Assembly: GCA_018715935.1 (NCBI GenBank)
Contig: DVKR01000010.1
Coordinates: 1-64,000 of the forward strand
DNA: 64,000 nucleotides
From: Candidatus Aphodovivens excrementavium
Lineage (GTDB): Bacteria > Actinomycetota > Coriobacteriia > Coriobacteriales > Eggerthellaceae
Direction of reading: 5' to 3'
Shown piece by piece: positions 47,696 through 51,162 of this stretch; the first letter of the stretch is position 1, and every line of letters starts with the position of its first letter. A program made the translations under genes and the position numbers. The notes beneath the pieces were generated by a model that had not been told where the DNA came from, made no database searches, and saw only the letters and a program-made list of their open reading frames with translations.

Positions 47696-47819
47696 GGCAG
47701 CCTTCCTTTTCTTGCTGTTGAGGGTATCGTAGCGCATGTTGGAAAGGCTCTGCGAGGGAAGAGCCCCTTTCGCGACTCGTTTTCGGCATCTGCCGCAGCA
47801 CCCGTGCCTTTGAATGAAC

Positions 47820-47839
47820 ATGTGCGACCGAAACGCGCG
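47820..47839 (+). repeat. Half copy of the palindromic element
   Basis: The 20 bases ATGTGCGACCGAAACGCGCG match one arm of the two full palindromes nearby, but the inverse arm is absent. It lies 46 bases before the first full copy. Confidence 0.75.
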
Positions 47840-47885
47840 CGAAGGTGTGCGCTGTGCGCGAAGACATTGCTTTTTCTTGCAAGGT

Positions 47886-47950
47886 GCAAATGTGCGACCG
47901 AAACGCGCGTGGGAACGCCCCTCAAACGCGCGTTTCGGTCGCACATTTGC
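47886..47950. repeat. 65-bp palindromic element, copy 1
   Basis: Two perfect 25-bp inverted arms (47886-47910 and 47926-47950; arm core GTGCGACCGAAACGCGCGT) enclose a 15-base loop GGGAACGCCCCTCAA. It lies in the divergent gap between ybaK and the AbiEi/DUF559-like gene, 143 bases before the latter's start. The stem is far longer than a normal terminator and has no T-run. Confidence 0.9.
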
Positions 47951-48093
47951 TGCGATGCCTCGCAAAACGCGTCTTTGCTCCATTTGCTTTGGATTCATGA
48001 GATACTAAGACTCTCAATGGGGAAAGCGCCCACTGACGTGTGAGATCGAGCGGACTTGTGCCAACCAGCGGTTCTTCAGAGGGAGGGCGACGT

Positions 48094-49131
48094 ATGGGTG
48101 CACGCGAAACGGAGCTCAGAGGTTTGTTCGATGCAGCGGAAAAAAGCTGCGCCTGCTTTACTACACGCGACGCACGGCTTCGCGATGCGCTTCGGCGCGC
48201 GATGAAACGGGGAGAAGTGGTTCGTCCCGCGCGAGGTGTGTATGCGCGATCCCCGTATTGGCTTTCCCTGGCTGATCGCGAAAAGGGCCTTCATGTACTT
48301 CGGGCTCTGCAGCTTGCTCATCCTGATTGGGTGTTTTGCGGCTGCTCTGCTGCTCTGGCATACGATATGCCCGTTCCCTTCTCGCAGATGGGAGATGTCC
48401 ATGTTGCAACATCGCGCAGTAGGCGAAATCGCTCTACTAAAGATGCCGTTTTTCACGCGCTGCCTGAAGGCGATCCTGTCTTCTCGGTTTCCGGCGTCAA
48501 AGTCGTTTCGTACGAGCGCGCATTACTTGACTGCATGAGAACGTCCGGTTTTGGACGAGCGCTCGCATTCGTCGATGCCGCCTTGAGGTCGGGCCGTACG
48601 CGCGAAAAGCTGCTCTCCTATTTCCAAAAGGAGGGGCGAGGCTATCCGGGCGTTCTTCGCGCTGCAAAGGCGCTGCTCTACGCAGACGGGCGCAGTGAGA
48701 GCGCAGGGGAGTCTATGGCGCGCGCAAGCATGATCGAGCTGGGCTTCTCTCTGCCCGATCTGCAAGTTCCATTCAGGCGTCCGTTGGATCGGAGGCGCTT
48801 TTACCGCGTTGATTTTCTCTGGATGCGCGAGGATGGCGTTCGAGTCATTGGAGAGTTCGATGGCAGGGGAAAATACGAGGACGCCGCCTTGCGCGGGGAT
48901 CGCTCTGCGGTGCAAGTTTTGGAAGAGGAGCGGAAGCGGGAATCCCGACTGACGATCTACGGCATGCCGATCGTTCGCTTTTCGTATCACGATATCGCAA
49001 ACAAGGCACGCTTTTCTCGCCTTCTGGAGGAGTTTGGCGTTCCTCGCCGTTTGGAGGCGGCTGAAGAGCATCGAAGAATGGAGCGGTCGAGATTGCTTTC
49101 GGCTAAGACGTTTTCCATCGTGCCTTTCTGA
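48094..49131 (+). CDS. AbiEi-like winged-helix protein with DUF559-like nuclease fold
   Basis: This 345-residue protein begins with an AbiEi-type winged helix (CACFTTRDARLRDALRRAMKRGEVVRPARGVYARSPYW). A middle region follows (LRALQLAHPDWVFCGCSAALAYDMPVP). The C-terminal domain reads YRVDFLWMREDGVRVIGEFDGRGKYED then ERKRESRLTIYGMPIVRFSYHDI, the PD-(D/E)xK-like DUF559 pattern. AbiEi proteins are antitoxins of type IV systems, but no AbiEii nucleotidyltransferase toxin adjoins it; stand-alone genes of this architecture are common in actinobacteria and of unknown function. ATG 48094 follows GGGAGGG. It is flanked on both sides by near-identical palindromic elements. Confidence 0.78.
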   Translation: MGARETELRGLFDAAEKSCACFTTRDARLRDALRRAMKRGEVVRPARGVYARSPYWLSLADREKGLHVLRALQLAHPDWVFCGCSAALAYDMPVPFSQMGDVHVATSRSRRNRSTKDAVFHALPEGDPVFSVSGVKVVSYERALLDCMRTSGFGRALAFVDAALRSGRTREKLLSYFQKEGRGYPGVLRAAKALLYADGRSESAGESMARASMIELGFSLPDLQVPFRRPLDRRRFYRVDFLWMREDGVRVIGEFDGRGKYEDAALRGDRSAVQVLEEERKRESRLTIYGMPIVRFSYHDIANKARFSRLLEEFGVPRRLEAAEEHRRMERSRLLSAKTFSIVPF

Positions 49132-49148
49132 TCAGGTATTCCTGATCA
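49129..49148. terminator. Small hairpin over the stop codon of the AbiEi/DUF559-like gene
   Basis: TGATCAGG (49129-49136) and CCTGATCA (49141-49148) are perfect complements around TATT. The first triplet is the stop codon. No T-run follows. Confidence 0.4.
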
Positions 49149-49210
49149 AGCAAGACCCTTCGGTGCATTTGCGCTTCTGAAAGGAAACAGGTCTTTGCCC
49201 AGCGAAGCGT

Positions 49211-49271
49211 AAATGTGCGACCGAAACGCGCGTGGGAATGCCCCCTAAACGCGCGTTTCGGTCGCACATTT
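49211..49271. repeat. Palindromic element, copy 2
   Basis: Perfect 23-bp arms (49211-49233 and 49249-49271), identical to those of copy 1, enclose a 15-base loop GGGAATGCCCCCTAA that differs from copy 1 at three positions. It lies 79 bases after the AbiEi/DUF559-like gene. Confidence 0.9.
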
Positions 49272-49317: not shown

Positions 49318-49416
49318 GTTTCGATCGTCGGTGCGCGAAGAGGGGGTTCGCTACCTTACGGCCAAAGTCCCGCGCGTGAGTGCCGTTTCGATCGTCGGCG
49401 CGCGAAAAAAGGGGGG
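49318..49416. repeat. Direct repeat in the gap before htrA
   Basis: GTTTCGATCGTCGGTGCGCG at 49318 recurs as GTTTCGATCGTCGGCGCGCG at 49385, each followed by a purine run ending in five or six G. The period is 67 bases. Together with palindrome copy 2 this accounts for much of the 432-base gap 49132-49563; no gene is supported there. Confidence 0.6.
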
Positions 49417-49563: not shown

Positions 49564-51162
49564 ATGACCGAGTACGGCAACAACCTCAACAACGGCACGC
49601 CCAACGCCTCGGGTGCCCCGCAGGCTCCCGCCGGCTATCAGGCGCAGTCCACCACATCATCTTTCGAGCAAGCGACGCAGCCAAACGGCCAAACCTATCA
49701 GGCGGCGCAGCCAGGCAGCCAGGCGTATCATGCCACGCAGCCAAACGGCCAGACCTACCAGACGGCGCAGCCAGATAACCAGACCTACCAGGCGGCACAG
49801 CCGGGCGGGCAGGCGTATCAGACGCAATCGTTCTTTGCGTCGTCGACTGCATCGTCAAGCCCGCAGGGTTCGGGAGCTTCGGGCAAGACATTCAAGAAGG
49901 GCGGAGCGAAAACGTTCCTTTTAGGGTTTGCCGGAGCGGCGCTTGCCTGCATTCTGGCGCTTGGCGGTTTCGCCGCGTGGCAGGGCGTCCAGGGATCGGG
50001 CGGCAGTTCCACTCAGCTGGGCAGCTCATCGTCAAGCACTATCAACGTCAACGGCGAGGATGCTACGTTAGCCGAGGCGGTAGCGGCGAAATGCCTCCCC
50101 TCCGTGGTCGCCATCGACGTGTACACCGAGCAGTCCTCTTCGAGCCTGTTCGGCATGTACGGCAGCGGCTCGGGGTCAAGCGAGCTCACCGAAACCTCGC
50201 TTGGCAGCGGCGTGGTCATCAGCGAGGACGGCTACATCATCACCAACAACCACGTAGTGGAGGGTGCCGACGCGCTGCGCGTGACCATCGACGGCCAGGA
50301 GTACGACGCCGAGGTGGTGGGAACCGACCCGTCCTCCGACCTTGCGGTGGTGAAGGCGCAAAACGCCTCTGGTCTGACGGCGGCGGATCTGGGCGATTCC
50401 GACAATCTGACCATCGGCGAGTGGGTCATGTCCATCGGCAGCCCCTTCGGCCTTGAGCAGTCGGTCGCAACCGGCATCGTGTCGGCAACCAACCGCTCCC
50501 AGATCATGGACAGCTCCACCAACGCCTACGGGCAAAGCGAGACGACCGTCTACACCAACATGATCCAGACCGACGCCGCCATCAACCCCGGTAACTCCGG
50601 TGGTGCGCTGGTGGACTCCGACGGCAAGCTGATCGGCATCAACACGCTGATCACGTCGTATTCGGGCAACTACTCCGGCGTCGGGTTCGCCATTCCGATC
50701 AACTACGCGATGGGCATCGCCCAGCAGATCATCAACGGCGAGACCCCCAGCCATGCCCAGCTCGGCGTGACGATGTCCACCGTCAACAGCCAGCTTGCCG
50801 ACCGTTACGGGTTCGCGGTTGACGAAGGCGCCTACGTCTCGGCCGTGCAGCAGGGGTCCGGCGCCGAGGCCGCAGGCATCCAGGCCGGCGACATCATCAC
50901 CTCGTTCGACGGAGAGGCAGTCGCCTCCGCCAGCGACCTGACGATGGCGGTGCGCTCCAAGAACGTGGGCGACACCGTGTCGGTTGAGGTCAATCGCGAC
51001 GGTCAGACGCTCACGATGGACGTGACGCTGGGTTCCGACAGCAGCTCTCAGGAGCCGTCGACCCAGCAGCAGAGCCAGTCGCAGGACAGCTCCGGCTCGA
51101 TGCAGGACTATCTTGACCAGCTCTTCGGCGGCGGATCCCAGCAGCAGGACAACGCCGCGTAA
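49564..51162 (+). CDS. htrA: HtrA/DegP-like membrane-anchored serine protease
   Basis: This 532-residue protein has a cytoplasmic N-terminus of five decapeptide repeats ([10 protein letters not shown]-like; DNA 49675-49824), one membrane helix ([23 protein letters not shown]) and an external trypsin-like domain. The catalytic triad is His230 (ITNNHVV), Asp259 (SSDLAVVK) and Ser345 ([10 protein letters not shown]). A single PDZ domain follows ([16 protein letters not shown]...[14 protein letters not shown]), then a Gln/Ser-rich tail. HtrA proteases degrade misfolded envelope proteins. ATG 49564 follows AAGGAGCGTGAGCAGA. Confidence 0.95.

Follow-up and report, generated by a model that had tools for sequence, protein, structure and literature searches.

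Palindromes paired with genes for a predicted AbiEi-like, Vsr-like nuclease in Actinomycetota

The nuclease gene and its flanking palindromes

The window (the whole stretch of 64,000 nucleotides of DNA analyzed here) contains a gene predicted to encode a protein of 345 amino acids (positions 48094 to 49131, plus strand; termed the nuclease gene herein), which begins with an ATG start codon, is preceded by an AGGGAGG-type ribosome site, and has tRNA_edit and HtrA genes as neighbors. The gene is bracketed by two palindromes. Palindrome 1, the upstream copy (positions 47886 to 47950, no strand assigned), lies between the nuclease gene and its divergent neighbor and consists of two 25-nt arms (GCAAATGTGCGACCGAAACGCGCGT) that are 100% complementary and enclose a variable center of 15 nt (GGGAACGCCCCTCAA). 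Palindrome 2, the downstream copy (positions 49211 to 49271, no strand assigned), has 23-nt arms, again 100% complementary, around a 15-nt center (GGGAATGCCCCCTAA) with three differences from that of palindrome 1, and the 81 nt of its context share 86% identity with the context of palindrome 1. The initial annotation had described these two palindromes, which we recovered to the base, as well as a half-copy further out; the latter is present as a single arm (positions 47815 to 47839, plus strand; 92% identical to the arm, family D3) located 46 nt outside palindrome 1. The core TGTGCGACCGAAACGCGCG has five matches in the window, with 0.11 expected from shuffled sequences. Neither window palindrome has a GTAG or CGTC tag next to its ends on either strand, no terminator call or T-run was found at palindrome 1 or 2, and an Rfam search returned only sub-threshold miRNA-hairpin look-alikes. 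Just outside palindrome 2 lie two 29-nt direct repeats (GTTTCGATCGTCGGYGCGCGAA...; window positions 49318 to 49346 and 49385 to 49413) that are 86% alike and are possibly decayed relatives of a different palindrome class. Tandem repeats of 30 bp at window positions 49669 to 49818 lie in the 5' part of the neighboring htrA-like gene and encode a decapeptide repeat rich in Q, A, and P.

An AlphaFold2 model of the protein (50-sequence alignment; pLDDT, 93) was compared with known structures using VIA-align. The C-terminal domain (residues 199 to 317; positions 48688 to 49044, plus strand) is a PD-(D/E)XK nuclease domain of the Vsr/I-Bth0305I type, matching I-Bth0305I (3r3p) with a Z score of 10.4 over 93 residues (rmsd, 2.3) and DNA-bound Vsr (1cw0) with a Z score of 9.1 over 105 residues. 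The N-terminal half (residues 3 to 198; positions 48100 to 48687, plus strand) appears to comprise a winged helix and an AbiEi-type domain with a putative role in DNA recognition; it matches the AbiEi antitoxin 6y8q with a Z score of 8.9 over 179 residues, at a high rmsd of 7.0, and the AbiEi similarity was also found by sequence (PADLOC, 6e-11; Pfam AbiEi_4, 23.4 bits, which is under the cut-off of 25). Foldseek alone yielded nothing at an E value of ≤0.001, and a sequence search of the PDB gave chance matches only. Across 50 homologues, residues E206, D240, E254, D256, and K260 do not vary. The prediction is of a fusion protein in which a DNA-binding, AbiEi-like half precedes a nuclease resembling Vsr and I-Bth0305I, its catalytic-type residues intact; DNA binding and cleavage are inferred from this prediction. 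In the earlier description of the gene as AbiEi/DUF559-like, encoding a winged helix plus a PD-(D/E)xK-like domain, the DUF559 part needs correction: DUF559 itself gives no match, and the fold is Vsr-like.

No AbiEii toxin was detected among the window neighbors or nine scanned neighbors from relatives, the lone AAA_21 match among the neighbors being an ABC ATPase, and the nuclease gene itself has no Y1_Tnp match. Its codon usage is atypical (per-codon score of −0.01 versus 0.27 ± 0.07 for the window genes), as is that of the homologues in every species checked, which is consistent with mobile or recently acquired DNA. The identity of the gene as phage or plasmid cargo was rejected: no relative was confirmed in viral_contigs, the phage search gave one partial match, and the plasmid search gave three weak matches.

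Association of gene and palindrome among homologues

Homologues of the 345-amino-acid protein are present in other Eggerthellaceae, Olsenella/Atopobiaceae, Collinsella, and Bifidobacterium. For each locus, the 500 bp to the left of the gene were compared with the 500 bp to the right by best local alignment, a score of at least 20 being counted as a pass, and left and right flanks taken from different loci provided the expectation. A locus-specific repeat is shared by the two flanks at 50 of 78 homologue loci from Coriobacteriia and Bifidobacterium, versus 0.58 expected, and when the anchor was shifted by 2.2 to 3.4 kb along the same loci, only 0 to 3 of ∼72 reached a score of ≥20. Ten more distant homologues from Actinomycetota include five that pass, with none expected. 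At about one-third of the homologue loci, a paired flank repeat was not detected by this test. Three loci (L069, L097, and L100) show a second strong left-right repeat similarity ∼2.6 to 3.0 kb upstream of the homologue, which another gene copy does not explain.

The repeat sequence tracks the protein lineage rather than the genome. Repeats are unrelated between paralogues of the same genome (in one example, the loci score 63 and 31 on their own and 13 when crossed; in another, 81 and 22 versus 12). Of the two paralogues in genome G075 (Paraeggerthella), gene I has a class I palindrome on either side, and gene II adjoins one class II palindrome. Among pairs of loci with no synteny detected between them, a repeat is shared by 0 of 998 at <50% protein identity, 2 of 31 at 50 to 60%, 2 of 8 at 60 to 70%, and 4 of 4 at ≥70%, although a few of the pairs at ≥70% are on contigs too short for synteny to be assessed. 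That gene and element might occur together in related genomes, as had been raised initially, is thus borne out by the 50 of 78 loci and by the rise from 0 of 998 to 4 of 4: the pairing is real, conserved, and lineage specific.

Co-occurrence across 138 genomes of the family is supporting evidence only. At least four palindromes of the CCGAAA type occur in 8 of the 15 genomes with the gene versus 2 of the 123 without it (Fisher test, 1e-7), and all 7 palindrome-rich genera are among the 10 gene-bearing genera (48 genera in total). The threshold was picked after the table had been seen, the genomes share ancestry, and classes outside the CCGAAA pattern were not counted. The two palindrome-rich exceptions without the gene belong to genera in which a sister species carries it. 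The complete genome G052 contains >20 and G088 contains 7 CCGAAA-type palindromes, with no gene of the nuclease family detected in either; either gene loss or a different partner would account for these.

Dispersal, anatomy, and turnover of the palindromes

The source genome (2.08 Mb, 54 contigs) contains 7 complete palindromes, two that are truncated at contig ends (the end of C13 and the start of C27), and the half-copy. The truncated copies are probably one element split by assembly, giving 8 sites, which rules out that the palindrome is confined to the nuclease locus. The complete copies and the split one all have the same arms and differing centers of 14 to 17 nt, the most similar centers being the two beside the nuclease gene. 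The exact palindrome class of the window is absent from the 137 other Eggerthellaceae genomes searched; in relatives, the homologues are bracketed by diverged classes (TTCGCTCCTAAAACACGCCTCA in the complete genome G019, CATTGTCGCCCGAAACGTACGGTTT in Paraeggerthella, and others elsewhere), ruling out that they use the window's own palindrome sequence. Dispersed copies are present in each genome checked: there are ∼36 copies of its own class in G019, and G075 has ∼20 copies of class I and ∼8 of class II, both dispersed. Several classes (TCGCTCC, CCGAAACACACG, and CCGAAACGTACG) are found together in G019, though only one nuclease gene was detected there, and some of them may be relics of lost genes.

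When 42 dispersed copies were placed relative to genes predicted with a codon-usage caller, none (0/42) lay inside a called gene. Convergent gene ends are favored (17/42 versus a background of 21%), and divergent promoter regions are avoided (3/42 versus 22%). In Olsenella-type genomes, BIME-like repeat arrays with a spacing of 52, 58/71, or 73 bp flank the homologue on both sides (L083, 944 to 2794; L122, 4468 to 6372; L114, 4500 to 6245). The initial comparison to REP/BIME elements is therefore apt, the palindromes being dispersed between genes and in places arranged as BIME-like arrays. The pairing would have been called into question by palindromes at hundreds of sites without association with the protein family, or by the gene being kept at its locus without them; neither was encountered, and the palindromes number in the tens per genome and are associated with the family.

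Eleven elements representing nine classes from Eggerthellaceae show Watson-Crick pairing without exception at each of the 20 arm pairs. These elements were picked as palindromes, so the pairing percentage is not itself evidence; 16 of the 20 pairs have changed on both sides with no one-sided G-U change, and this absence of G-U intermediates fits DNA better than RNA. Position 8 of the G019 arm likewise co-varies (G-C in 7 copies, A-T in 4, T-A in 3, and one mismatch). Comparison of 15 orthologous elements between the sister species G075 and G076 gave divergences of 1.05% for the arms, 10.4% for the flanks, and 18% for the centers. Perfect arms in two copies had been taken to imply recent spread or active maintenance; the low divergence of the arms relative to the flanks supports maintenance, and recent spread does not describe Paraeggerthella, where most sites are common to the sister species. 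The distance between half-sites (total length) is essentially fixed, at 54 bp in 59 of 59 instances of classes I and II, 47 bp in 23 of 24 in G019, and 49 bp in 6 of 7 in the source genome (an element lying in several loci may count more than once). Two half-sites with fixed spacing and a free center are the layout expected for the site of a dimeric protein, binding and dimerization being inferred.

The sister species also differ in the class of palindrome at orthologous sites. One site has class I arms in G075 and class II arms in G076, with the center retained but inverted, and a second (L261/L282) shows the same difference in class between G075 and G076. A triplet duplicated in G075 has the arm combinations I/I, I/chimeric, and I/II-like, versus II/II in its single G076 counterpart, as if arms had been converted one at a time. 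The chimeric and class-switched elements suggest arm copying between palindromes. Palindromes also seem to mediate larger deletions or insertions, as G075 lacks the 7.8 kb found between two G076 palindromes and instead has one palindrome connecting the outer flanks. This G076 interval (C1, 31.7 to 39.55 kb; L291) holds a molybdopterin/Fe-S reductase-type operon. No palindrome-only insertion opposite a clean empty site was seen between G075 and G076; where a palindrome is present in one species and absent from the other, the difference involves a larger indel, and most sites occur in both.

G076 has a frameshift in gene I and only ∼14 codons left of gene II, but its perfect palindromes persist. 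As G076, G052, and G088 show, a functional copy of the gene in the same genome is not strictly required for the arms to be maintained; the persistence of palindromes after gene loss could reflect recent loss, the action of another paralogue, or independent maintenance. The gene itself lies at differing chromosomal loci in most lineages, even within the same genus, and its orientation is flipped at a common locus in L058/L062 versus L060.

Proposed mechanism and alternatives

With moderate confidence, and in the absence of biochemical evidence, we interpret gene and palindromes as a REPtron-like unit built on an unrelated enzyme, whose cognate sites are the gene's own flanking palindromes and their dispersed copies. 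A dimer of the protein would bind the two inverted arms, held at an essentially fixed spacing, and would cut or nick the variable center, and repair from another palindrome copy would then restore or spread the arm sequence. The proposal draws on the binding of inverted repeats by AbiEi antitoxins (PMC7319586) and on the dimerization of I-Bth0305I on a long target (PMC3943268). Under such cut-and-repair, arms would stay identical genome-wide while centers mutate, flip, and differ by site, and the gene, bracketed by two palindromes, would now and then be copied or inverted along with them. This scheme, in which binding, dimerization, cleavage, and repair-driven spread are all inferred, would explain the frozen arms, the variable and invertible centers and their fixed length, the conversion of single arms, the replacement of one class by another, dispersal, and the bracketing of the gene.

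In REPtrons, which combine REP/BIME elements with the transposase RAYT/TnpA_REP (PMC2817692, PMC3733652, PMC8266576), RAYT genes are reported to be always flanked by two inverted REPs, with REPs also dispersed (PMC2817692). The system described here resembles them in its two flanking palindromes, intergenic dispersal, co-divergence of palindrome class and protein, compensatory arm changes, and BIME-like arrays. It differs in that the enzyme is AbiEi-like plus Vsr-like nuclease and not a Y1 HUH transposase, and in that the elements are dyad symmetric and of essentially fixed length, with a variable center and no GTAG tag. Since the enzyme is unrelated to RAYT, the unit is not a REPtron by homology, and its chemistry must differ from that of RAYT. 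The EDxHD/Vsr-type homing endonuclease I-Bth0305I, which the nuclease fold resembles, forms a dimer on a target almost 60 bp long (PMC3943268), close to the 57 to 65 bp of the elements. It belongs to a phage group I intron and has a single target site, whereas the gene described here stands alone, with the dispersed palindromes of one family as its putative sites. Site-specific cleavage that leads to copying of the gene into the cut site, as in homing, is hinted at here by genomic traces only, namely, the class switches, the arm-wise conversions, and the changes in locus and orientation of the gene. A further parallel is with MITEs and insertion sequences with terminal inverted repeats, in that the dispersed palindromes are non-autonomous and copy the ends of a unit that bears a gene. 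Here, however, each end is a complete palindrome, there is no transposase, and target duplication is undemonstrated.

REP sequences rank with the most common repeats of bacterial genomes; the dedicated enzyme in the REP papers cited is the HUH transposase RAYT, and some REP families apparently have no dedicated transposase (PMC3733652). In the literature searched (most subscription papers and bioRxiv being outside its scope), we found no published account of this nuclease-palindrome pairing, and nothing relevant on DUF559 with palindromes, AbiEi with DUF559, or REP in Coriobacteriia. It is possible, and we put it forward only tentatively, that these units form an undescribed class of selfish or domesticated elements in Actinomycetota, in which a free-standing Vsr-like homing-type nuclease targets palindromes of fixed length and dyad symmetry that are spread and homogenized by cut-and-repair without transposition and independently of HUH transposases, as a second evolutionary route to REP-like repeats. 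The data suggest an overlooked self-spreading or DNA maintenance system based on a type of nuclease that had not been associated with such repeats before. If this is true, REP spread would be convergent, with a second and unrelated family of nucleases having cognate palindromes. How short palindromes spread and stay identical could then be tested simply in vitro, and the family would supply nucleases that recognize long dyad sites, the specificity of each being evident from the sequence that flanks its gene.

AbiEi antitoxins of type IV toxin-antitoxin systems bind inverted repeats and thereby autoregulate (PMC7319586), and the N-terminal half resembles them in sequence and fold; the protein differs from them in its fused nuclease domain and in the lack of an AbiEii toxin among the neighbors tested. 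The protein might be an AbiEi-type autoregulator, with the flanking palindromes as operators, the dispersed copies as its regulon, and the nuclease domain serving another purpose. The position of palindrome 1 between the gene and its divergent neighbor would suit this, as would the fixed element length, which suggests a protein-bound operator. We nevertheless consider it unlikely, given the equal palindrome copy downstream of the gene, the preference for convergent gene ends over divergent promoters, the invariant catalytic-type residues in 50 homologues, and the persistence of palindromes after gene loss.

It seems quite unlikely, too, that another agent (a Y1 transposase, replication slippage, or general recombination) made and spread the palindromes and that the gene family does no more than insert at them or travel along. 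Genomes with palindromes and no gene are compatible with this, and a Y1_Tnp gene was found in 13 of 19 tested genomes, including the source genome, where it is a single, RAYT-like gene (G000:C38:18541-18867; L042, 6452 to 7246). However, no palindrome of the window's class lies near this gene, Y1_Tnp was not detected in G075, G065, G021, G149, G147, or G382, several palindrome-bearing genomes being without a detected copy, and Y1/RAYT was rejected as the partner of the palindromes. Against this reading, too, the palindrome classes follow the protein lineage, same-genome paralogues included.

Compared with the cut-and-repair unit proposed above, a defense module, with the nuclease protecting the cell from invading DNA and the palindromes acting as self-marks, decoys, or sensors, is very improbable: the AbiEi homology and the PADLOC AbiEi matches would fit it, but the AbiEii partner is absent among the immediate neighbors tested, and class switching and spread are unexpected of a self-mark. 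Terminators or mRNA-stabilizing hairpins paired incidentally with the gene are hardly tenable, because despite the intergenic, REP-like placement at gene 3' ends, the window palindromes lack T-runs and terminator calls, palindrome 1 lies in a divergent region, every variable pair across the 11 elements (chosen as palindromes) is two-sided without G-U intermediates, and the pairing with the gene is far above chance.
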